A stretch of DNA of 12,634 nt from Pseudomonadota bacterium. Lineage in GTDB: Bacteria; Pseudomonadota; Gammaproteobacteria; UBA5335. Of this stretch, positions 1-12,634 are shown piece after piece (the stretch's first letter is position 1; each line of letters starts with the position of its first letter). The stretch covers positions 1 to 12,634 of the forward strand of contig PKCW01000023.1 of NCBI GenBank assembly GCA_002862965.1, written 5' to 3'. Below the pieces are notes generated by a model. It saw only the letters and a list, made by a program, of their open reading frames with translations. It ran no database searches and was not told where the DNA came from. The position numbers were made by a program, and so were the translations under genes.

Positions 1-348
1 GCGGCGGGCGAGCTCAAGCACGGCCCGATCGCGCTCATCGAGCCCGGCCAGGTCGTGTTCGTGATCGTGCCGAGCCCCCGCGACGAGAACTCGCTGCACG
101 CGAAGGTCGTCTCGAACATCCAGGAGATCCGGGCCCGCGGCGCGCGCGTCATCGCCATCGCCGAGGCCGGCGACGTCGCGGTGCTGCCGCACGCCGACGA
201 GGTCATCCGCATCCCGCTCGCCTCGCGCTTCTTCGAGCCGCTGCTCGCGGTCGTGCCGCTGCACATCTTCGGCATGGAGCTCGCCGCCGCGAAGGGCCTC
301 GACGTCGACCAGCCGCGCAACCTGGCGAAGTCCGTCACGGTCGAGTAG
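1..348 (+). CDS. glmS: Glucosamine-fructose-6-phosphate aminotransferase (isomerizing), C-terminal 115 residues
   Basis: GlmS makes glucosamine-6-phosphate from fructose-6-phosphate and glutamine, the first step toward UDP-GlcNAc for peptidoglycan. The frame is open from base 1 and ends at TAG 346-348, so the glutaminase domain, the first SIS domain and part of the second are off the left edge. What remains is the end of the isomerase SIS domain. It starts AAGELKHGPIALIE, whose His (fragment residue 7) matches E. coli GlmS His504, and ends DQPRNLAKSVTVE, the near-invariant GlmS C-terminus, whose Lys (residue 110) matches Lys603. All nine Glu codons are GAG, whereas coaD further right uses six GAA and six GAG. 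With the acpS-like start 25 bases downstream, this resembles the actinobacterial glmS-acpS arrangement and not the gammaproteobacterial genes that follow. The family call is very secure; the lineage is inferred from codons and context. Confidence 0.95.
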   Translation, partial: AAGELKHGPIALIEPGQVVFVIVPSPRDENSLHAKVVSNIQEIRARGARVIAIAEAGDVAVLPHADEVIRIPLASRFFEPLLAVVPLHIFGMELAAAKGLDVDQPRNLAKSVTVE

Positions 349-373
349 TCGGCGTGCGGGTCGGGGCTCCATT

Positions 374-394
374 GTGATCGCGGGCATCGGCGTC
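374..394 (+). CDS. acpS: First codons of a holo-[acyl-carrier-protein] synthase gene, cut off at a sequence join
   Basis: Starting at GTG 374, the translation is V-I-A-G-I-G-V, which matches the usual AcpS N-terminus ((M/V)I.GIGVD). It sits 25 bases after the glmS stop, the position acpS holds in many actinobacterial genomes. After Val the expected Asp-Val-Val does not appear: the frame runs into I-W-F-G-E, which belongs to a different protein (an SMR transporter end). Only seven codons support the call, so it rests heavily on position. AcpS would transfer phosphopantetheine from CoA to acyl carrier protein. I read this as the left arm of a chimeric join, not as a working gene. Confidence 0.5.
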
Positions 395-400
395 ATCTGG
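383..400 (+). other. Probable chimeric join between two genomes
   Basis: The short frame 374-490 begins like AcpS and ends like an SMR transporter. The change falls in GGC-ATC-GGC-GTC-ATC (383-397), coding GIGVI, a string both families could share at this spot (AcpS GIGVD, SMR helix 4 G-I/V-hydrophobic before WFGE). Left of it Glu is coded only by GAG and the gene order is actinobacterial-looking; right of it codon use is mixed and the genes look gammaproteobacterial. A short shared string is what a misassembly or cloning chimera would leave. Natural recombination cannot be excluded from one sequence. Confidence 0.6.
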
Positions 401-490
401 TTCGGGGAATCGTGGAACATGCTCAAGGGGCTGAGCCTCGGCCTCATCGTGCTCGGTGTGGTCGGACTGCATCTGGGCAGCGGCGCTTAA
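395..490 (+). CDS. Small multidrug resistance (SMR) family transporter, last transmembrane helix only
   Basis: The frame reads IWFGESWNMLKGLSLGLIV, then LGVVGLHLGSGA, and stops at TAA 488-490. This matches the end of SMR proteins (EmrE/SugE/QacE type): the WFGE motif, a short polar loop, then transmembrane helix 4 with the sequence L-IV-G-V-V-GL-L. Complete members are about 105-110 residues with four helices and work as antiparallel dimers exporting cationic compounds or guanidinium. About 75 residues with helices 1-3 are missing because the sequence changes to an acpS-like gene near 383-397. The stop lies two bases before the rsmD start, so in the parent genome this gene probably led the rsmD-coaD-ggt operon. 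The family call is good but rests on about 32 residues. Confidence 0.65.
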   Translation: MWFGESWNMLKGLSLGLIVLGVVGLHLGSGA

Positions 491-3374
<2,884 letters not shown>

Positions 3375-3378
<4 letters not shown>

Positions 3379-4637
3379 CCTGCTGCGTTCAGCCAAAAGC
3401 CGATCAGCAGCCCCGAGAGCATGGCCGCGCCCAGGACGGCCGCCACCCGAACGCCTACCCCGCGCCCACCCAAGGCAAGCGCGAGTCCCATCTTGACGAG
3501 GTTGTTGGACGTTGCGGCCAACAGGATCCCCAGCAATACCGTCGGAATGCCAAGCCCCTCCTGCCCCATGCGCGCGAGCGACAGCGTGATCGCATCGACA
3601 TCCGAGAGACCGGACAGCACCGCTAGTCCATAGAGACCGGGATCGCCCCATCGGGTCTCGATCCATTCGGCCAGCAGCAGCACGCCGAGCAGCAGGGCAG
3701 CAAACCGCATCGCCATGCGCAGCTGGAATGGATTGCTCAGGCTCAGGACGGGAGCGTCGATGCGTCGGTGCTGCCGCCACCAGATCAGTATCGCGCCGCC
3801 GTAGGTCACCCCCGCCATCACGGCCAGCGGCAGTGTCAGGGCCGGCAAGAGGGGCGGATGCATCAGGCCCGCGACCAGCAGGATGCGCGGGAACATGGTG
3901 CCGCAGGCCACCAGAATGCCGCTTGCGAGCGTCGGGCTCCAGTCCGGTTGGCTGCGCCCGATCCGCGCGAGGCTCCAGGTCACTGCCGTGGAGGAACTCA
4001 AGCCCCCGAACAAGCCCGTCAGCAGAATCCCCCGGCCCGGCCCCAGCAGCTTGACCGCAAAATAGCCGGCGAAGGAGATGCTGGCGATCAGGACCACCAT
4101 CATCCAGATTCGATAGGGATTGAGCACTGCGCCGGGTCCGTAGCCCGCGTTGGGCAACACCGGCAAGAGGACGACCGAGATCAGCAGCAGATTCAGCGTG
4201 GCGCGCAGTTCATGCGCCTGCAGCCGCGCCACCCCGGTGTGCAGGATCGGCTTGAGGTTGAGCAGCATCGTGGCAATGACCGCCCCCGCCGCTGCCAAAG
4301 TCGACTCGCCCAGCCCGGCCAGTGCGCCCAGCCCCACGGTCAGCAGTCCCGCAACGGTGGTCGTTGCGCTCGCGGTGCCGTCCGCGCGAAACCGCAGCAG
4401 GTAGCTGCCGCCCATGACCAGGGCCGCCGCCAGGACGATCGCGGCCGCAACGCTGCCGCCCAAGTGCTGGCCCAGCAGACTGGCGACGCCGCCCAGGAGC
4501 CCCAGAAGACCAAAGGTGCGCAGGCCCGCGATGCGCTCGCCTTCCGGGAGCGCGCGGCTCTGCCAGCCCCGTTCCAGACCGATCAGCAAGCCGACCGCAA
4601 GCGCCAGTGCCAGATAGCCGAATGATTGCTGCTGCAA
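3375..4637 (-). CDS. MgtC/SapB N-terminal domain and DUF4010 integral membrane protein
   Basis: The 420-residue protein is almost wholly hydrophobic, with about a dozen candidate transmembrane segments. The first segment carries the MgtC/SapB-type motif GLLIGLERGW (residues 16-25), followed by GLRTFGLLGLLGG. The second half matches DUF4010: NPYRIWMMVVLIASISFAGY, GLFGGLSSSTAVTWSLAR, GLSDVDAITLSLARM and TSNNLVKMGLA. Proteins of this two-domain type (350-420 residues) are widespread in proteobacteria and their function is unknown; MgtC itself is linked to magnesium limitation and control of F-type ATPase, but transfer of that role here is not justified. The start is TTG at 4635-4637: an in-frame stop lies 36 bases upstream, there is no ATG or GTG between, and GAGG sits about seven bases ahead. 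The stop codon overlaps that of the convergent ggt. It probably has its own promoter, since a terminator precedes it. Confidence 0.88.
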
Positions 4638-4672
4638 GGCGGCGCCTCGTGGGCTCGGGGGTCGAACTCTCG

Positions 4673-4703
4673 TTTATAGAGAAAGAGCCCGGCAGGATGC
4701 AAA
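4673..4703 (-). promoter_or_regulatory. Possible sigma70-type promoter for the MgtC/DUF4010 gene
   Basis: On the minus strand TTTGCA (4698-4703) and TATAAA (4673-4678) are separated by 19 bases; the -10 matches five of six consensus positions and the -35 four. It lies between the upstream gene's terminator and the TTG start 36 bases away, where a promoter is needed. The spacing is longer than ideal. The -10 sits in a small inverted repeat (CTCT..AGAG). Confidence 0.4.
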
Positions 4704-4714
4704 CGGCAGACCTC

Positions 4715-4747
4715 GAAAACAGCAGGGGCCCTGAGGGCCCCTGCTGT
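4715..4747 (-). terminator. Rho-independent terminator of the small exported protein gene
   Basis: A perfect 13-base-pair inverted repeat (4719-4731 with 4735-4747, three-base loop) is followed on the minus strand by TTTT C (4718 downward). It lies 25 bases after the stop of the 4773-5102 gene and upstream of the MgtC/DUF4010 gene, so it separates the two minus-strand transcripts. On the plus strand the base tract after the stem is not T-rich. Confidence 0.85.
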
Positions 4748-4772
4748 GGGATGACGCGGATGGACGGAAGAA

Positions 4773-5102
4773 TCAGGGCGCAGTCGGCATGGTCCAGCTG
4801 AAGCCCAACCCCTTGGACTTGTCCCGGCCGCCATCGAAGCTGAACGCAGCGCCCGTGACAGGATCGGAATAGCCCAGCGTCCTGAACTTGCTCTTCGACG
4901 GGCCGACCGAGAAGCTGCCCCCGGTGGCATCCATCGACAACGACAAGCCCTTGTCCTTGGTCTTGCCGATGTCGAGCGTCAGACCCTGACCGTTGATCCC
5001 CGCCAGCTCGCCGTAGGGAATGGCCGTCATGTCCGCCTGGGCAGCCAGCGGCAGCACGCCGAACAGGACCGAGAAGGCACCGATTTTCAGATTTTTGTTC
5101 AT
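4773..5102 (-). CDS. Small exported beta-rich protein of unknown family
   Basis: The 109-residue product starts MNKNLKIGAFSVLFGVLPLAAQA, a standard Sec signal peptide with a likely cut after AQA (residue 23). The mature part, about 86 residues, has no Cys and is rich in Gly, Ser, Lys and Asp. It shows short stretches of alternating side chains that look like beta strands: GQGLTLDIG (38-46), DKGLSLSMD (50-58), GSFSVGP (62-68), AAFSFDGG (85-92) and SKGLGFSW (96-103). The start ATG 5100-5102 is chosen because AGGA lies nine bases upstream and it gives a clean signal peptide; a longer frame reaches 5186 but would bury the signal. The string ELAGINGQGLTLDI near the mature N-terminus is reminiscent of the GQxG(I/L)T motif in some gammaproteobacterial surface proteins, but this is only a resemblance. 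It is a single-gene unit between two terminators. I do not recognise a function. Confidence 0.75.
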   Translation of the reverse strand: MNKNLKIGAFSVLFGVLPLAAQADMTAIPYGELAGINGQGLTLDIGKTKDKGLSLSMDATGGSFSVGPSKSKFRTLGYSDPVTGAAFSFDGGRDKSKGLGFSWTMPTAP

Positions 5103-5218
5103 GATATTTTTTCCTGGTTTTTTGGTTCGACACGTCGGCCCGTCTATCCGGGCGCGGCGGAAGCCCGAGCGGATGCAGGACTTCATGGAGAGTATCGACC
5201 GGCGCCTGAGGACCTTGA

Positions 5219-5256
5219 GAAAAAAAGGCGCTGCCCGGGGGCGGCGCCCTTTGCGT
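5219..5256 (-). terminator. Rho-independent terminator behind an orphan gene tail
   Basis: The inverted repeat 5227-5236 / 5239-5248 forms a 10-pair GC-rich stem. On the minus strand it carries one A-C mismatch and is followed by seven T (complement of A5220-5226). It begins 26 bases after the stop at 5274-5276. On the plus strand the stem has a U-G pair instead but only TTT follows. There is no intact minus-strand gene upstream until 6061, so it seems to be left over from a gene now broken. Confidence 0.7.
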
Positions 5257-5273
5257 CGATCCGGCGGATCGGG

Positions 5274-5373
5274 TCAGCCTTCCTTGGGCTCCGGTTCCTG
5301 CGCCGTCAACTGCGAACCCGGCGTAGGATCTGCGGCATTAAACTGCCGACGCCGAACCGGTTGATCTGTCGAC
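5274..5373 (-). pseudogene. Orphan C-terminal tail of an unknown protein
   Basis: A minus-strand frame of 33-34 codons without a usable start ends at TGA 5274-5276. Its last part reads AADPTPGSQLTAQEPEPKEG, which looks like a natural acidic, proline-rich protein tail. A good terminator follows 26 bases later. Upstream, the frame meets a stop at about 5376-5378 and then the degraded IS3-like sequence. The simplest reading is the end of a gene whose body was lost when the insertion sequence landed and decayed. The parent family cannot be named. It could also be a chance frame; the terminator is the main argument. Confidence 0.35.
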
Positions 5374-5955
5374 TTTTCTTATGGACCGACGGTGACAGCG
5401 TGTCGACCACCAACCGGAATGGCGGCCGGCGACCCCGTCGGTCACGATACGCTCGTGACCGCGCTCCTCGACCACATCAAACACCTCGGTTGCCAGCCGC
5501 TGGCGCAGACGTTGAACACGAAGTCGCACGACCACGTCCCGTTGATCCGGGTCGGTGTCAGCGGGCGTCTGGACGCGACGCGAAGTCGCTTGCCCCGGGG
5601 CGGCACTTGCAGCCCTTGCGGATGCCACATGCGCGGATGCCCCATGCGGTGTGTGCGGTCCGACTCACGATGCGAGCATCGCGATCCATGGCCGGGCCGC
5701 GGCTAGCGGACCGCCAGCCTACGCATGGCGGCATCCACCGCAGCTTCCTCCATCGCCAGGCGGGGCGCTCAGCCGAATGCCGAACGCGTCAGCGACCGCG
5801 GCCGGCCGGCGCCCCGTTGCGACGGGCCTCCGGCCTTCGCACAGGTCACTGGCTCCCGTCACGTCAGACCGCGCCCCATTTGCGGCAATCGCCGTCCTGG
5901 CCTCGATTTCGACGTCCCGCTCGGCCCCTCGCCCCTTCAGCCGGGTGATCTCCGG
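5340..5955 (-). mobile_element. Degraded IS3-family insertion sequence remnant (orfA end and orfB middle)
   Basis: No intact gene exists here. Two minus-strand frames resemble IS3-family parts. First, 5866-5955 reads EITRLKGRGAERDVEIEA, like the leucine-zipper end of OrfA (E-I-x-x-L-x-x-x-x-A-x-x-x-E/RD). Second, 5472-5645 reads WHPQGLQV..RGKRLRVASRRPLTPTRINGTWSCDFVF, like the OrfB stretch R-x-EGL-V-R-R-x-KR through WSMDFV, where Asp (codon 5523-5525) is the first catalytic Asp of the rve domain. The similarity goes on as GWQPRCLMW and then, one frame over (from about 5480), VVEERGHERIV, matching IS3 CLT-VVDDxTHE. About 240 bases separate the two parts, close to the distance expected from the end of orfA to this point of orfB. 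The rest of the DDE domain is missing. Terminal repeats and target duplication were not found. Confidence 0.5.
5804..5835. repeat. GC-rich imperfect hairpin inside the IS3-like remnant
   Basis: GGCCGG (5804-5809) pairs with CCGGCC (5830-5835), and GCC(C)CGT (5811-5817) pairs with ACGGGC (5822-5827) around a short TGCG loop. No T tract follows on either strand, so it is not a typical terminator. It may be chance in GC-rich DNA. Confidence 0.35.
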
Positions 5956-6060
5956 TTCCGGTTGCGGCAGGGGCTCCGGATCGACCGGGTCCAGCGCCCG
6001 CACCGTTCGACCCGTGGGAGCTTTCTTGCTTCTGGAATCTGCTCGACCAACCAATCGGCT

Positions 6061-6765
6061 TCAGGAAACCGAGGCGCCATTCCGACTCGATTGCGAGGCC
6101 GACTTCAAGGTCGGCGCCAGCAGCTCCTTGATTTTGGGAGGAGCGGCGCTGGGCCGGTATTGCGGCTCTCCAGCCACCTTGCCGAGCTTGATCAACTGCT
6201 CATGCGGCGTGCTGTAGATCATGCGTTTGATGAGCCAATCCGGCACGGGAATGTTGGGCTTCATCATCATGACGTTGGTGACCTGGGTACGCCCCTCCCC
6301 GGCCGGTTTGAGAATCCATTCGCCGTTCATCGCCCCCAGCGCGCTCTTGGTGCCGGGCGGCTGCAGATCGGGACGCTCCTTGTACTGGTAGATCACGCGA
6401 TCGGGTTTGGCCTGGAGCTGGGCCTCGATGACGCTCTCGTTGGCCGGCAACGGCCATGGCGGCTCGGCGTGGACCTGCAGAATCCAGGTGTGATCATTCG
6501 GCTGGTCCTTGACTTTCATGGACTTGATCATCGATGCGCGCCAGCGTGTCGCGGCGTCATAATCCAGAATCAGTGCCATCACGCTCACCAGCGGCGCGTC
6601 CACCGTGGTTTCCGCCTTGACCTCGATTCCCCCTCCGGCGGCATCCCTCGAGTACACGCGGACCCCGCTCTCGTCCTTGCCGAGCTGCCACTCCGCCGCG
6701 ACCGCCATCCAGGGCAGCAAGAGCAGCGCCCACACCATGTTCCGACTGTGTTTTCGCCTGTTCAT
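6061..6765 (-). CDS. Exported START-domain (lipid-binding) protein
   Basis: The 234-residue precursor begins MNRRKHSRNMVWALLLLPWM followed by AVAA, a Sec signal peptide with a probable cut near residue 23 or 24. The mature protein is one START (StAR-related lipid transfer) domain of about 200 residues: W-L-KDESGVRVYSRD, the strand VKAETTVDAPLVSVMALI, DYDAATRW, then EPPWPLPANES, YQYKERPDLQPP and the closing helix PVPDWLIKRMIYSTPHEQL. START domains hold a hydrophobic ligand in a closed beta-grip pocket; bacterial exported members are poorly studied and the ligand is unknown. ATG 6763-6765 is preferred because GAGGAG lies exactly six bases upstream (complement of 6772-6777); a longer frame from 6789 would add MGDDEESR ahead of the signal peptide. 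It is probably a single-gene unit with its own promoter. The variable tail (LKSASQSSRNGASVS) ends at 6061, beside the IS3-like remnant, and no terminator is seen directly after the stop. Confidence 0.85.
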   Translation of the reverse strand: MNRRKHSRNMVWALLLLPWMAVAAEWQLGKDESGVRVYSRDAAGGGIEVKAETTVDAPLVSVMALILDYDAATRWRASMIKSMKVKDQPNDHTWILQVHAEPPWPLPANESVIEAQLQAKPDRVIYQYKERPDLQPPGTKSALGAMNGEWILKPAGEGRTQVTNVMMMKPNIPVPDWLIKRMIYSTPHEQLIKLGKVAGEPQYRPSAAPPKIKELLAPTLKSASQSSRNGASVS

Positions 6766-6799
6766 CCTTGACTCCTCGTCATCGCCCAAAGGTTCGCAA

Positions 6800-6812
6800 C
6801 CACGCTGCGTGG
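6800..6812. promoter_or_regulatory. Perfect 13-base palindrome at the START gene's predicted transcription start
   Basis: CCACGC-T-GCGTGG has two perfect six-base arms around one centre base. It lies six bases downstream of the -10 hexamer at 6819-6824 and so covers roughly +1 to +13 of the START-gene transcript. That position suits an operator; it could also be a small 5'-UTR hairpin, though a one-base loop is not stable as drawn. Confidence 0.4.
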
Positions 6813-6818
6813 CCTATC

Positions 6819-6824
6819 ATTGTA
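6819..6824 (-). promoter_or_regulatory. Likely -10 element of the START-domain gene
   Basis: The minus strand reads TACAAT, five of six matches to TATAAT, 53 bases before the ATG. No good -35 hexamer is visible 16-18 bases further upstream, so the promoter may be weak or activator dependent. Confidence 0.4.
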
Positions 6825-6856
6825 GTCCGCCGATCCACCCGGACCGAGAGACCGCA

Positions 6857-6979
6857 ATGCCCGGCACATTTGCCCCCTCGACGCCGCTTCCGGCCGTACT
6901 CATGCCCCATTCGACCCGCGCGGGAAAATCGAGGTTCCCCGGCCCGCTCGGGCGGCAACCCGCCCGGAGCGATCCGTGA
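6857..6979 (+). CDS. Possible 40-residue upstream ORF before the VOC gene
   Basis: ATG 6857 opens a frame of 40 residues starting MPGTFAPSTPLPAVLMPHST and ending at TGA 6977-6979, which overlaps the VOC start codon as GTGA. The overlap is the arrangement expected for coupled genes. Against it: no clear Shine-Dalgarno sequence, a composition typical of out-of-frame GC-rich DNA, and no recognisable family. It may be a leader peptide or chance. Confidence 0.2.
   Translation: MPGTFAPSTPLPAVLMPHSTRAGKSRFPGPLGRQPARSDP
6947..6969 (+). promoter_or_regulatory. Hairpin that could mask the ribosome binding site of the VOC gene
   Basis: CTCGGGCGG (6947-6955) can pair with CCGCCC(G)GAG (6960-6969) around a CAAC loop, with one bulged G. 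The 3' arm includes most of GGAG (6966-6969), the Shine-Dalgarno sequence for GTG 6976. Folding would limit initiation; ribosomes arriving from an upstream frame could open it. Confidence 0.35.
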
Positions 6980-7332
6980 GCGCATGGATTTCCCATGTCG
7001 AATGGCATTGCCACGATGCGCCCCGTCTGGCGGAGTTTCTCGCAGCGCTGTTCGGCTGGTCATTCGTTGCGCATGGGCGACACTGCCGCGAGGCCACGCC
7101 CGCGCGCGGGCCGCGCATCGGCCTGCTGGAGGTCGCCAGCCGTCCCGACGGCGAGACGCAGCAGGCCTTCATCGCCGTGGCCGATCTCGAGCTCGTTCTG
7201 CAGCGCGTGCGGGATCTGGAAGGCGTGGTGGTACAGGCGCCCGTCACGGTACCGGGATATGGCCGATACGCACGCATTCGGGCGCCGGAGGGGACGGTGC
7301 TGGGGCTGTTCAGCGAGCAACCGGCAAACTGA
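6976..7332 (+). CDS. VOC (glyoxalase / bleomycin-resistance fold) family protein
   Basis: The 118-residue protein fits a single VOC unit of two beta-alpha-beta-beta-beta modules. The first module starts [19 protein letters not shown], with His7 at the usual first metal position, followed by ALFGWSF, the conserved F-Y/W-x-x-x-x-G-W/F turn of the family. The second ends [16 protein letters not shown], where Glu in the last strand is the usual second metal ligand position. VOC proteins include lyases, dioxygenases and antibiotic-binding proteins, and the substrate cannot be told from this sequence. GTG 6976 is preceded by GGAG (6966-6969) six bases upstream. It precedes mdh by 97 bases on the same strand and may share its transcript, though mdh probably also has its own promoter. 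Confidence 0.8.
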
Positions 7333-7339
7333 TTTTTGT

Positions 7340-7345
7340 TACACT
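7340..7345 (+). promoter_or_regulatory. Weak candidate -10 for mdh
   Basis: TACACT lies in the AT-rich patch TTTTTGTTACACTA, the only AT-rich spot in the 97-base gap before mdh. It matches four of six -10 positions. No convincing -35 is seen. The evidence is mostly position. Confidence 0.25.
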
Positions 7346-7429
7346 ACCGGCCTTTTCCAGAGGCCGCGCCGCCAACGCCCGCCCTCTTCCGCCCTGTACC
7401 CGGTATCCGCGAACCCTAGGGAGTCTTCC

Positions 7430-8407
7430 ATGAAAAAACCTGTACGCGTTGCAGTAACCGGCGCCGCCGGCCAGATCGGTTACGCGCTGAACTTCCGCAT
7501 CGCCTCAGGTGCCATGCTCGGCCCGGACCAGCCGGTGATCCTGCAACTCCTGGAAGTCCCGCAGGCGCAGGAAGCGCTCAAAGGCGTGGTCATGGAGCTC
7601 AACGATTGCGCCTTCCCGCTGCTGGCCGAGGTCATCGCCACCGACCGCCCCGAGGAAGCCTTCAAGGACGCCGATTACGCCCTGCTGGTCGGCGCCCGCC
7701 CGCGCGGGCCGGGCATGGAGCGCAAGGATCTGCTGGAAGCCAATGCGCAGATTTTCTCGGTGCAGGGCAAGGCGATGGACCAACACGCCAGCCGCGACAT
7801 CCGCGTGCTGGTGGTCGGCAATCCGGCCAACACCAACGCCCTGATCGCCGCCAGCAACGCCAGAAGCCTCGATCGGCGGCAGTTCACCGCCATGACCCGC
7901 CTGGATCACAACCGCGCCGTGCACCAGATTGCCGCCAAGGTCGGCAAGCACGTGAACGACGTGCGCCGGGTCACCATCTGGGGCAACCATTCCTCCACGC
8001 AGTATCCGGACCTGCACCACGCCACCGTCGGCGGCAAGGCCGCGCTGGAACAGGTGGACCCGGGCTGGTATGCCGATGAATTCATTCCCGTGGTGCAGCA
8101 GCGCGGCGCCGCCATCATCAAGGCCCGCGGCTCCTCCTCCGCCGCCTCCGCCGCCTCCGCCGCGCTCGACCACATGCGCACCTGGGCGCTGGGCAGCGCG
8201 GAGGGCGACTGGGTCAGCATGGGCATCCCCTCCGATGGCAGCTACGGCATCCCCGAAGGCGTGGTCTATTCCTATCCCGTGCTCTGCAGGAACGGTCAGT
8301 ACGAGATCGTCCAGGGTCTGGAGATCAACGGTTTCAGCCGCGAGCGCATGGACGCGACTTACCGCGAGCTGAACGAAGAACGCGAGGGCGTCGCCGCCCT
8401 GCTCTGA
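7430..8407 (+). CDS. mdh: NAD-dependent malate dehydrogenase
   Basis: The enzyme interconverts malate and oxaloacetate with NAD in the TCA cycle. The 325-residue protein belongs to the roughly 326-residue malate dehydrogenase type that resembles eukaryotic cytosolic MDH, not the shorter E. coli enzyme. Seen motifs: Rossmann loop [10 protein letters not shown] (G11, G14, G17), mobile-loop [14 protein letters not shown] with the substrate arginines, [10 protein letters not shown], catalytic Asp159 in RLDHNRA and His187 in [12 protein letters not shown], and the C-terminal YSYPVLC and [11 protein letters not shown] 7430 is preceded by AGGGAG (7418-7423) six bases upstream. In the helix after KARG the sequence is [14 protein letters not shown], coded by a short GCC-TCC run. 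A strong terminator follows 33 bases after the stop, so transcription ends here. Confidence 0.97.
8131..8162 (+). repeat. GCC/TCC codon run inside mdh
   Basis: The coding strand has a near-perfect repeat of the nine-base unit TCCGCCGCC, giving [11 protein letters not shown]. The protein stretch corresponds to the normal MDH helix that usually reads A-S-S-A-A-S-A-A-N-A-A, so the family sequence is itself repetitive and the DNA has become uniform through codon choice. Confidence 0.6.
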
Positions 8408-8439
8408 AGCCCCAAGGCCAGTTATCGCTTCAAACATCG

Positions 8440-8466
8440 ACGCCGGGGCCTCCCCCGGCGTTTTTT
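8440..8466 (+). terminator. Rho-independent terminator of mdh
   Basis: ACGCCGGGG (8440-8448) pairs perfectly with CCCCGGCGT (8453-8461) around a CCTC loop, followed by a run of six T (8461-8466). It lies 33 bases after the mdh stop and 11 bases from the end of the convergent lhr gene. In the lhr direction the hairpin is not followed by T, so it mainly serves mdh. Confidence 0.92.
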
Positions 8467-8476
8467 CATGGGTCGT

Positions 8477-11400
8477 CTACACCCCGATTGCGTCGGCCCC
8501 GTCCCGGTAGAGAACCCGCCGCCCGGGCAAGGCCGGGATGCGCTCGCCGGGGGTGAGGATGCCGGCGAGATTCAGGGGATCCGCGGCCGAGAGGCTGATT
8601 TCCGCCCCGCTCGCCGCTTCCCGCGCCAGCGTCCGCAGCAGCCCGACGGCTTCGGGCAGCGCGAACTGCTCGCCGGAAAAGCCCGCGACGAAACGTCCGC
8701 CCAGCACTTCGCCCTGCGCTTCCAGACGCCAGAACACATACAGCAGCTCGCGCCAGGGCGGCAGCGGCCCTTCACGCACCAATAGCGCCTTGAACACGAC
8801 GCCGTATCGGCGCAGCAAGGTCCGCGCAACCGTCTCCAGGGTTTCGAGCGCATGGGTCGGAAAGCGCGCCCGGGTGTCCGCCGTCGCCGCGAGCGGGCGC
8901 AGCCGCGACCACCGCCCGGCCTGTGCCAACGGGCTCGCATGCGCCGCCCGCCGCGCGCTGCCGAAATCGCCGCGGCGCATGCGCCGCCGGGGCCGCCGGA
9001 ACGCGGCGAAGCCGTCGGCCGTCACCAGCCCCCACCCGATGAGCTCGGTCAGCGCCGTATCGACGTGGCTGGACAGCAGGCCGCTCTCGGCGATGAGTTC
9101 TTCGTGAAACAGTGCGCCGCCGTCCTCCAGCGCCGCCAGGAGACCTTGCGCGGCGCCGGACAGCGGGATCGTGCCCGGATCGGGCAAGGGCGCCACCGCA
9201 CGCCAGGCACGCCATTGTCCGCGCGGAATGAGGGTCAGCGGAATCTGGCGCAGGCTGCTCCCACGAAACCGCGGCCGGTCGCCCGCCTCGCCGGCCTCCG
9301 GCAGCGCAAGGCGCAACCAGAGATAGCGCCCCTGTGACAGCAGGGCGTCGAGATCGGCGGGCGCAAAGCCCTTGATCCGGGCCGACAGGAGCTCGCCTTC
9401 CCAGGCCGGCGCCGGCGCCGACCAGCCGGCCAGCCGGTCCAGCGCCGCGCACAAGGCATCCGGACCCTGCGGCGGTGCGTCTAGGCCGTGCCAGTGCAAC
9501 AGAAAGCGCTGAAAATCCGCCGCGCCGACCGTGTCCTGCTGCGCGCGCCGCCGCTGCAGGCTGGCGCGTTGCAGGCGCGCGAGGACGCGCCGCTCGCACC
9601 ACTGCGCCACGCCGGCTGCGGTAAAGCTTCCGGCCATGACCTCGCCCTGCGCCGCCAAGGCTTCGAGCGCCGCCTCCACCGCCGCAACCGCGACGCCCAA
9701 GGGCGCGGCAAGCACAGTCGCGGTCGAGGGCGCCTGGCTCGCCAGCCGGTCACGCAGGACGCGCTGCAAAGCCGTGGCGCATGCGCTCGATCCCCCGGAC
9801 GCCTGGCAGGCGGACTGCACCTCGGCGAGCCGTTCGCGCGCCACCCACAACGGGGCATCGGAGCCCCGGCTGAGCGCGTGGGCACGCCCCGCCGCGCACA
9901 GAGCCGCAAACCACGTCGCGGCCTCGGGGTGACAGGCAGCGCCTTCATGAGCGTCGAGAAAGCCGCAGACCTCGAGCGCATCGAGCAGTTCCTCGGCGTC
10001 GCGCGGCGGCGGCCGGAGCTGCGCTTGGACGGCCGCAACGACGGCTTCGTCGCACAGCGTCGGCGCGGCGGCCTCGGTCCAAGCCGCGCTGCGCGTGGCG
10101 ATCGCGCGCGTGCGCCGCTCCTCGGCCGCGCCATCGTCGAGAAAGGCATAAGGCTTGGCGTTGATCACCGCTTCGGCCAGGGGCGAGGGGGCCGTCAGGT
10201 CGCGCCCGCTGACCCGCACCGCGCCGGATTCTAGGCCCTGCAGCAGGCGCTCCAGCCCCGCCCCGTCCATCACCTCGTCCAGACTGTCGCGCAAGGTCTG
10301 TTGCACCAGCGGATGATCCGGGATCTCGCGCTCGCCCCGGATGTTCTCCAGACAGGCGAGCTGATCGGGAAAGATCAGCGCAATGAGGTCCTCGGCATCC
10401 TGACGCTGAAACTGGGGCGGCCGGCGCCGGCCGCCCTGGCGACGCGGGACGGTGAGCGCCGTAGTCGCCACCCAGCGCCAGCGGGCCGGGAAGAACGGTG
10501 CGTCCAGCAGCGCCTGGACGAGCACCGCGCGCACCGTGCGCGAATGCAGGTAGCGCGGCACGTCCAGCAGATCGAAGCGGTGCGTCGGGCCGAGCGACAG
10601 CAGCAGGCTGTCCTCCAGCGCGGCGGCCTGCAGCTCGAAGTTGAACTGGCGACAGAAGCGCTTGCGCAACGCGAGCCCGAAGGCGCGGTTGATCCGCGCC
10701 CCGAACGGGCTGTGGATGACCAGATGCGGATCGCCGACCTCGTCGAGAAAGCGCTCCAGAATCAGATGATCCTGCGTCGGCAGCGCGCCCAGCGCCGCAT
10801 GCGCCGCGGCGAGGTATTGGGTGAGCTGGTCGGCCGCCGGCAGGGCGAGCTGGTAATCCTGCGCCAGCAGCGTGCGCGCCGCATCGATGCCGCCGGCCTC
10901 CAGCGCCGCCGCCACGGCTGCATTCAGACCCGACACCGCCGCGGACAGGGCGTCGCTGCGCCCCGGCGCCTCGCCCAGCCAGAACGGAATGCCCGGCGGC
11001 GCCTCGCCGGCGTCGCTGACCTGCACCCGGTCGGTCTCCACGCGCAGGATGCGGTAGGCGCGATTGCCGAGCTGAAAGATGTCGCCGGCCAGGCTCTCGA
11101 AGGCGAAATCCTCGTTTACCGTGCCGACCCGCACACCCTCGGGCTGCAGGATGACGTCGTAGTCGAACTGATCGGGAATGGCGCCGCCGTTGAGCAGGGC
11201 GCTCAGGCGCGCGCCGCGGCGCGGCCGCAGGATGCCGGCGGCAGCGTCGCGGAACAGATGCGCGCCGCGCCGTCCGCGCCGGGTGTCCACGCCTTCGGCC
11301 AGAAACGCGACGAGCCGATCGAACACGGCCCGCTCGAGCGCCCGGTAGGGCCAGGCGGCGGTGACCTGGGTCCACAGCGCGGCCTCGGTGATTTCGCCGC

Positions 11401-12634
11401 GCGCGGCCACCTCGGCCACCATCTGCTGCGCCAGCACATCCAGCGCCCCGGATGGGATCGCCAGCCGGTCGAGCGCGCCCGCGCGGACGGCGTGCAGCAG
11501 GGCGGCGCACTCCGCCAGATCATCGCGGCTGAGTGGGAACAGCCGGCCCTTGGGGGTGCGCCCCACGCCGTGGCCGGAACGCCCGATCCGCTGCAGGAAG
11601 GCGTTGATGCTGCGCGGCGAGCCCAACTGACAGACCAGATCGACCTCGCCGATGTCGATGCCGAGTTCCAGGGATGCCGTCGCCACCAGCACCCGCAGCG
11701 TCCCGGCCTTGAGGCGCGCCTCGGCGTCCAGGCGGTGCTCGCGCGCCAGACTGCCGTGATGCGCCGCCACCTGATCGCGGCCCAGCCGCTCGGCCAACTG
11801 GCGCGCGACGCGCTCGCACTGCCGGCGCGTATTGACGAAAACCAGCGTGGTGCGATGGGCAAGGGCGCGCTGCGCGAGCCGGTCGTAAAGCTCGCCCCAG
11901 ACCTCGTTCGACAGGACCGCTTCCAGTGGCGCGTCGGGCAGTTCCAGCGCCAGATCCCACTGCCGGCGATGACCGGCGTCGACGATCGCGCATCCGGCCG
12001 GCCGGCCGGTGAGCATCGCGGCGACGGCGGTGAGCGGCTGCGCGGTGGCAGAAAGCCCGATGCGCTGCGCGCGCTGACCCGTCAGGGCGTCGAGCCGGGT
12101 CAGCGACAGGGCGAGGTGTGCGCCGCGCTTGGTGCCGGCGAGTGCGTGGATTTCATCGACGATGACCGTGCGCACCGTGGCGAGCATGCGCCGGCCGGAG
12201 GCGCTGGTGAGCAGGAGATAAAGCGATTCGGGCGTGGTGACGACGATGTGCGGCGGGATGCGCCCCATGCGCTGGCGCTCGCCGGCCGGCGTGTCGCCGG
12301 TGCGCACCCAGGTGCGAATGCCGACGGCTCGTGCGCCCTCGGCCCGCAGCAGCTCGCCGATGCCGTCCAATGGATGCTGCAGGTTCTTTTCGACGTCGTT
12401 GGAGAGCGCCCGCAGCGGCGAGACATAGAGCACGCGCGTCTCGTCGGCCAACCCGTCCGTCAGGGCCTCGCGCACCAGCGCGTCGATCGCCGCCAGAAAG
12501 GCGGCCAGCGTCTTGCCCGAACCGGTCGGCGCGCTGATGAGGGTGTCGCAGCCGGCGGCGATGCGCGGCCAGGCCGCGGCCTGCACCGCCGTCGGCACGC
12601 CGATCGCCTGCGCAAACCAGCGCCGGGCCGCGGG
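8477..12634 (-). CDS. lhr: Large helicase-related protein Lhr, start just beyond the right edge
   Basis: Lhr is a superfamily 2 3'-to-5' DNA translocase and helicase tied to DNA repair. The frame is open to the last base; 1385 residues are present and probably only a short N-terminus is missing, since it opens PAARRWFAQAIGVPTAVQAA, which normally lies near the start. Numbered from base 12634: Walker A APTGSGKT near 35-42, motif Ib TTPES near 133, DEIH near 160-163, SAT near 195-197, then in the second RecA domain VFVNTRRQCERV, HHGSLAREHR, TASLELGIDIGEVDLV and QRIGRSGHG. The winged-helix and Lhr-core domains follow (DYDVILQPEGVRVGTVNEDF, HSPFGARINRAFGLALRKRF). The C-terminal region ends SAADPLNLAGILTPGERIPA and RRVLYRDGADAIGV, so this is the full-length form and not the 800-900-residue ligase-associated form. 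E. coli Lhr is 1538 residues, so this one is shorter in its C-terminal half. A uracil-DNA glycosylase activity has been reported for the E. coli C-terminal region; whether it applies here is open. Confidence 0.95.
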   Translation of the reverse strand, partial: PAARRWFAQAIGVPTAVQAAAWPRIAAGCDTLISAPTGSGKTLAAFLAAIDALVREALTDGLADETRVLYVSPLRALSNDVEKNLQHPLDGIGELLRAEGARAVGIRTWVRTGDTPAGERQRMGRIPPHIVVTTPESLYLLLTSASGRRMLATVRTVIVDEIHALAGTKRGAHLALSLTRLDALTGQRAQRIGLSATAQPLTAVAAMLTGRPAGCAIVDAGHRRQWDLALELPDAPLEAVLSNEVWGELYDRLAQRALAHRTTLVFVNTRRQCERVARQLAERLGRDQVAAHHGSLAREHRLDAEARLKAGTLRVLVATASLELGIDIGEVDLVCQLGSPRSINAFLQRIGRSGHGVGRTPKGRLFPLSRDDLAECAALLHAVRAGALDRLAIPSGALDVLAQQMVAEVAARGEITEAALWTQVTAAWPYRALERAVFDRLVAFLAEGVDTRRGRRGAHLFRDAAAGILRPRRGARLSALLNGGAIPDQFDYDVILQPEGVRVGTVNEDFAFESLAGDIFQLGNRAYRILRVETDRVQVSDAGEAPPGIPFWLGEAPGRSDALSAAVSGLNAAVAAALEAGGIDAARTLLAQDYQLALPAADQLTQYLAAAHAALGALPTQDHLILERFLDEVGDPHLVIHSPFGARINRAFGLALRKRFCRQFNFELQAAALEDSLLLSLGPTHRFDLLDVPRYLHSRTVRAVLVQALLDAPFFPARWRWVATTALTVPRRQGGRRRPPQFQRQDAEDLIALIFPDQLACLENIRGEREIPDHPLVQQTLRDSLDEVMDGAGLERLLQGLESGAVRVSGRDLTAPSPLAEAVINAKPYAFLDDGAAEERRTRAIATRSAAWTEAAAPTLCDEAVVAAVQAQLRPPPRDAEELLDALEVCGFLDAHEGAACHPEAATWFAALCAAGRAHALSRGSDAPLWVARERLAEVQSACQASGGSSACATALQRVLRDRLASQAPSTATVLAAPLGVAVAAVEAALEALAAQGEVMAGSFTAAGVAQWCERRVLARLQRASLQRRRAQQDTVGAADFQRFLLHWHGLDAPPQGPDALCAALDRLAGWSAPAPAWEGELLSARIKGFAPADLDALLSQGRYLWLRLALPEAGEAGDRPRFRGSSLRQIPLTLIPRGQWRAWRAVAPLPDPGTIPLSGAAQGLLAALEDGGALFHEELIAESGLLSSHVDTALTELIGWGLVTADGFAAFRRPRRRMRRGDFGSARRAAHASPLAQAGRWSRLRPLAATADTRARFPTHALETLETVARTLLRRYGVVFKALLVREGPLPPWRELLYVFWRLEAQGEVLGGRFVAGFSGEQFALPEAVGLLRTLAREAASGAEISLSAADPLNLAGILTPGERIPALPGRRVLYRDGADAIGV

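Follow-up and report, generated by a model that had tools for sequence, protein, structure and literature searches.

The stretch of DNA analysed here, referred to below as the window, makes up the whole of contig C34 (12,634 bases) of the draft genome G000 (330 contigs totalling 2.30 Mb, with a listed completeness of 82.2% and contamination of 1.16%), and it is very probably an assembly chimera, in which a de Bruijn-graph misjoin near the contig end would have connected DNA of two co-sampled organisms. An earlier note, made from the letters alone, had suggested a chimera of two genomes, and this suggestion is now strongly supported, as two sources were identified and the loci of both are intact in relatives. 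The features on which the argument turns are collected in Table 1.

Table 1. Features of the window at and around the join
Feature	Position	Strand	Evidence
Actinobacterial glmS, 3' part (final 115 codons plus stop); not native to G000	1..348	+	388/394 bases identical to G044 over 1-394; 96% amino-acid identity to Microcella alkalica; 43% amino-acid identity to own glmS on C95
glmS-acpS spacer of a Microcella-type genome; last bases of the left source alone	349..373	+	Gapless against L115, mismatches at 368 and 373; congener DNA homology from 374
Join: 21-base stretch presumably common to both sources	374..394	+	Exact in L115 and L116; homologous VIAGIGV codons in the SMR gene of G003, 3/21 bases different
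SMR transporter gene of the right-hand genome, 3' part, truncated at the join	395..490	+	Homology to the last part of the whole G003 SMR gene (L085 1288-1611)
38-codon hybrid frame, almost certainly an artefact of the join	374..490	+	Translation; Pfam: no match
rsmD, right-hand genome	493..1110	+	TIGR00095, 163 bits, cut-off 117.5; after SMR in G003 and G002
coaD, right-hand genome	1154..1648	+	TIGR01510, 196.6 bits, cut-off 103.3
Gamma-glutamyltransferase gene	1645-3378		Downstream of coaD

The left end of the contig has an actinobacterial source

The frame at 1-348 encodes the C-terminal 115 residues of GlmS (NCBIfam NF001484, residues 1-115, E 2.1e-39), and its score of 135.4 bits falls below the whole-protein cut-off of 381 bits, as is expected for a fragment. 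When this GlmS end was scanned against named genomes, the best 80 of 588 relatives were actinobacterial by title or by recognised genus names, and the top two of these were Microcella alkalica, with 96% amino-acid identity. A search of a plasmid collection with 1-348 returned distant glmS matches, the best full-length match being at 68% (among 20 of 106 records listed).

A DNA search of the genus of Microcella alkalica covered 26 genomes, all of which matched at E 0.001 and 24 of them substantially (G056 and G060 gave short, chance-like matches only, and the match in G055 was cut by the start of a contig). The best genome of the genus was G044, which is identical to window positions 1-394 at 388 of 394 bases (98.5%) with no gap. 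Its locus is intact on a contig of 2,620,736 bases, where glmS is followed by acpS and then by alr (alr by reading), and its acpS begins GTG ATC GCG GGC ATC GGC GTC GAC; this agrees with the claim of the earlier note that glmS followed by acpS on the left side is an actinobacterial order, and the accompanying observation that the Glu codons of the left GlmS end are GAG was also correct (9 of 9). The window follows this Microcella-type glmS-acpS-alr locus through codon seven of acpS with six differences and no gap, whereas past 394 its sequence is no longer that of acpS. The six differences include positions 368 and 373, which lie near the join in the intergenic spacer. With the query extended to base 1200, the alignment stopped at 394 in six of nine Microcella-genus loci and at 348-353 in the remaining three (these nine being the correctly oriented loci out of 12; L117, L123, L125 and also the G001 stretch L130 were compared in one orientation only), and in a wider set one Microbacterium locus (L020) aligned to 401, at 79%.

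The draft genome has a whole glmS of its own on another contig (C95, 1453-3282, 609 codons), which is 43% identical to the glmS end in the window, as well as its own acpS (C20, 3484-3852); the gene upstream of the former (L127, 3286-3810) is presumably folK. A 3.4 kb Microcella-type locus searched against the whole of G000 matched C34:1-394 at 98%, and no other near-identical stretch was found, five others being at 70-89% over 44-264 query bases.

Codon use was also said to differ between the two sides, and this was borne out by codon log-odds, for which tables were made from three G044 genes (with the portion of glmS that matches the window left out) and from four G002 or G003 genes or parts of genes. 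The left 114 codons scored +29.4 towards Microcella-type use, and all eight right-hand genes or gene parts scored below 0, the SMR tail having -3.6 over 28 codons with a G002/G003 training set that included relatives of this tail and of rsmD. Among 2413 overlapping, and so not independent, 114-codon windows taken from seven right-hand genes, the highest score was 7.3 and none came up to +29.4. The two sides cannot be told apart by their GC profile (0.715 versus 0.705 across the join).

The right side belongs with the owner of the draft genome

DNA homology to congeners of the window's genome begins at position 374 in all three that were searched, as a single BLAST stretch of 374-4651 at 75% in G003, as 374-3317 at 74% in G002 and as 374-3256 at 74% in G001. 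Translated stretches reach 361-365 in some frames, and the letters of 354-373 have little likeness to the congeners. Searched apart, the two sides differ in their best-matching organisms, the left finding the Microcella alkalica genus and the right the congeners, in line with the earlier suggestion of two genomes.

In G003 (L085) a whole SMR gene is located between an O-acetylhomoserine sulfhydrylase-type gene and rsmD, which is followed by coaD, and the same sulfhydrylase-SMR-rsmD order occurs in G002 (L087), by reading of frames only. Positions 374-490 of the window are homologous to the 3' end of this SMR gene upstream of rsmD, but the 5' part, about two thirds of the gene, is missing from this contig. 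A PF00893 profile search of the whole of G000 at E 0.001 gave no match, and a search of G000 for the missing 5' part of the native gene together with its neighbour (L085:1-1540) gave two short, weak matches only. A glmS-to-rsmD order, which the earlier note would have taken as a sign of a real arrangement, was not found in the relatives inspected for it: G044 has glmS-acpS-alr, and G003 has OAH sulfhydrylase-SMR-rsmD-coaD.

Other features of the contig

Synteny with the congeners breaks at 4652-6096, as 374-4651 corresponds to contig C8 of G003 and 6097-12634 to its contig C4, in three stretches, and the matches in G002 are likewise split between C1 (to 3317) and C62. The interval itself has short matches only in G001-G003, and the break may be a rearrangement in the lineage or a second misjoin, within the same genus. 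A small minus-strand frame (4773-5186) lies inside it, beside a dip in GC at 5071-5460, and Pfam gave no match for the part of this frame at 4776-5111. A minus-strand gene at 3375-4637, encoding an MgtC plus DUF4010 protein (Pfam), is convergent with the gamma-glutamyltransferase gene, and a large Lhr-type helicase gene (DEAD, Helicase_C, WH_Lhr, DEAD_assoc), at 82% to G003, runs from 8477 to 12634 and is cut by the right contig end.

The two homologies overlap by 21 bases

The left DNA homology ends at 394 and the right begins at 374, giving an overlap of 21 bases at 374-394, although the ends of alignments do not mark such limits exactly. The earlier note had placed the change at a short string (GIGVI) that either gene could hold; the overlap is there, and its site is sharpened here to 374-394. 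This stretch is present exactly in the two closest Microcella-genus loci, L115 (G044) and L116 (G043), which are two of the nine correctly oriented loci, and it encodes VIAGIGV in G044, G043 and G003 and VIAAIGV in G002. At the DNA level G003, G002 and G001 each differ from it at 3 of 21 bases, and the SMR gene of the owner of the draft genome would presumably carry the same exact 21 bases. With up to two mismatches allowed, the stretch was found once in G000.

K-mers of 15, 17, 19, 21 and 23 bases were drawn from both strands of 15 loci in 13 Microcella-type genomes. None of them spans 394/395, and 374 is where the last shared 21-mer begins. Farther right than 394, 27 shared 15-mers and one 17-mer have their start, but none of 19, 21 or 23 bases.

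The open frame across the join

The frame at 374-490 is translated as VIAGIGVIWFGESWNMLKGLSLGLIVLGVVGLHLGSGA and then a stop. That it fuses the start of AcpS to the end of an SMR transporter, as had been proposed, is confirmed from both sides: AcpS begins with VIAGIGVDVVDLARFE in L115 and L116, both Microcella-genus loci, the 119-residue AcpS of L115 being a holo-ACP synthase by NF000832 (157.2 bits, cut-off 107), and the G003 protein with VIAGIGVLWFGESWN is an SMR protein of 107 amino acids (PF00893, E 4.4e-25). A Pfam search with the 38-residue hybrid itself matched no family. The whole ACPS domain (about 115 residues) is absent, with seven AcpS residues present and no Pfam match, as is the whole SMR domain (PF00893, about 93 positions), the hybrid covering the last 38 codons only, again with no match in Pfam. 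We regard the 38-codon hybrid as almost certainly no genuine gene, and the frame should stay out of annotation.

Bacteria can recombine at short shared stretches, and the frame stays open from a GTG start, both of which would suit a real recombination or very recent transfer in which the end of a Microcella-type glmS entered the SMR gene of G000 at a 21-base chance synonymous match, making the 38-codon hybrid. Such an event is extremely improbable here, given that 98.5% identity to a single genome of this actinobacterial genus would mean that the DNA had arrived very recently from a distant lineage and that the contig stops 394 bases away. Those 394 bases are, by translation, the end of glmS, a spacer and seven codons of acpS, with no mobile element visible, and all three congeners are homologous through the SMR tail from 374, which again speaks against recombination.

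A misjoin by the assembler is the preferred origin

We prefer an assembly chimera because the loci are intact in relatives, because the overlap equals the smallest default k-mer and because the join is near a contig end, being 394 bases from it within a draft of 330 contigs. Common metagenome assemblers (MEGAHIT, SPAdes) have 21 as their smallest default k-mer. Collisions of this length would be ordinary, since about 17-61 shared 21-mers are expected by chance between two such GC-rich genomes (2.3 and 2.6 Mb, 65-70% GC, with independent bases), compared to 2.7 at 50% GC. Less in favour of this reading are the 3 of 21 bases at which each congener differs, the two differences from G044 near the join, the spread of alignment ends on both sides, the almost constant GC content and the failure to find the remainder of the native SMR gene in G000.

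The owner of the draft genome and an actinobacterium close to G044 would thus have been together in one sample. VIAGIGV is encoded both where acpS begins in the actinobacterium and late in the SMR gene of the owner, and a chance agreement in synonymous codons would have given them the same 21 bases. An assembler working at its smallest k-mer (21) would have seen one node at 374-394 and may have passed through it from actinobacterial glmS into the SMR-rsmD block, with the contig ending 394 bases to the left. This k-mer step is likely, and we infer both the assembler and its k from the form of the join.

The nearest rival is a chimera made at the bench, by PCR template switching or by ligation of fragments at a short shared sequence during library preparation, and afterwards assembled faithfully. 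Two sources joined at a common stretch would fit this too, but a single chimeric molecule would presumably rarely win the consensus and the 21-base length of the overlap suggests a k-mer graph; a bench origin is very unlikely.

Consequences for the draft genome and comparison with known chimeric contigs

If the contig end were left in place, G000 would be credited with two glmS genes, with a glmS-to-rsmD order that is false and with a spurious protein of 38 residues. The caution in the earlier note that the left end must not be used to infer the gene content of this organism is upheld for 1-373 (to 394 at most); positions 1-373 should not be used for G000, and 374-394 are ambiguous. A pair of homologies whose overlap has exactly the length of the smallest assembly k-mer, near a contig end, would be a clean signature by which such joins can be spotted.

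A review (PMC7299287) describes how k-mers that genomes of one sample have in common can give rise to chimeric contigs in assembly. No difference was found between the window and chimeric contigs of de Bruijn-graph metagenome assembly, and it likewise combines two genomes, a short and presumably shared stretch, a position near a contig end and a fragmented draft.
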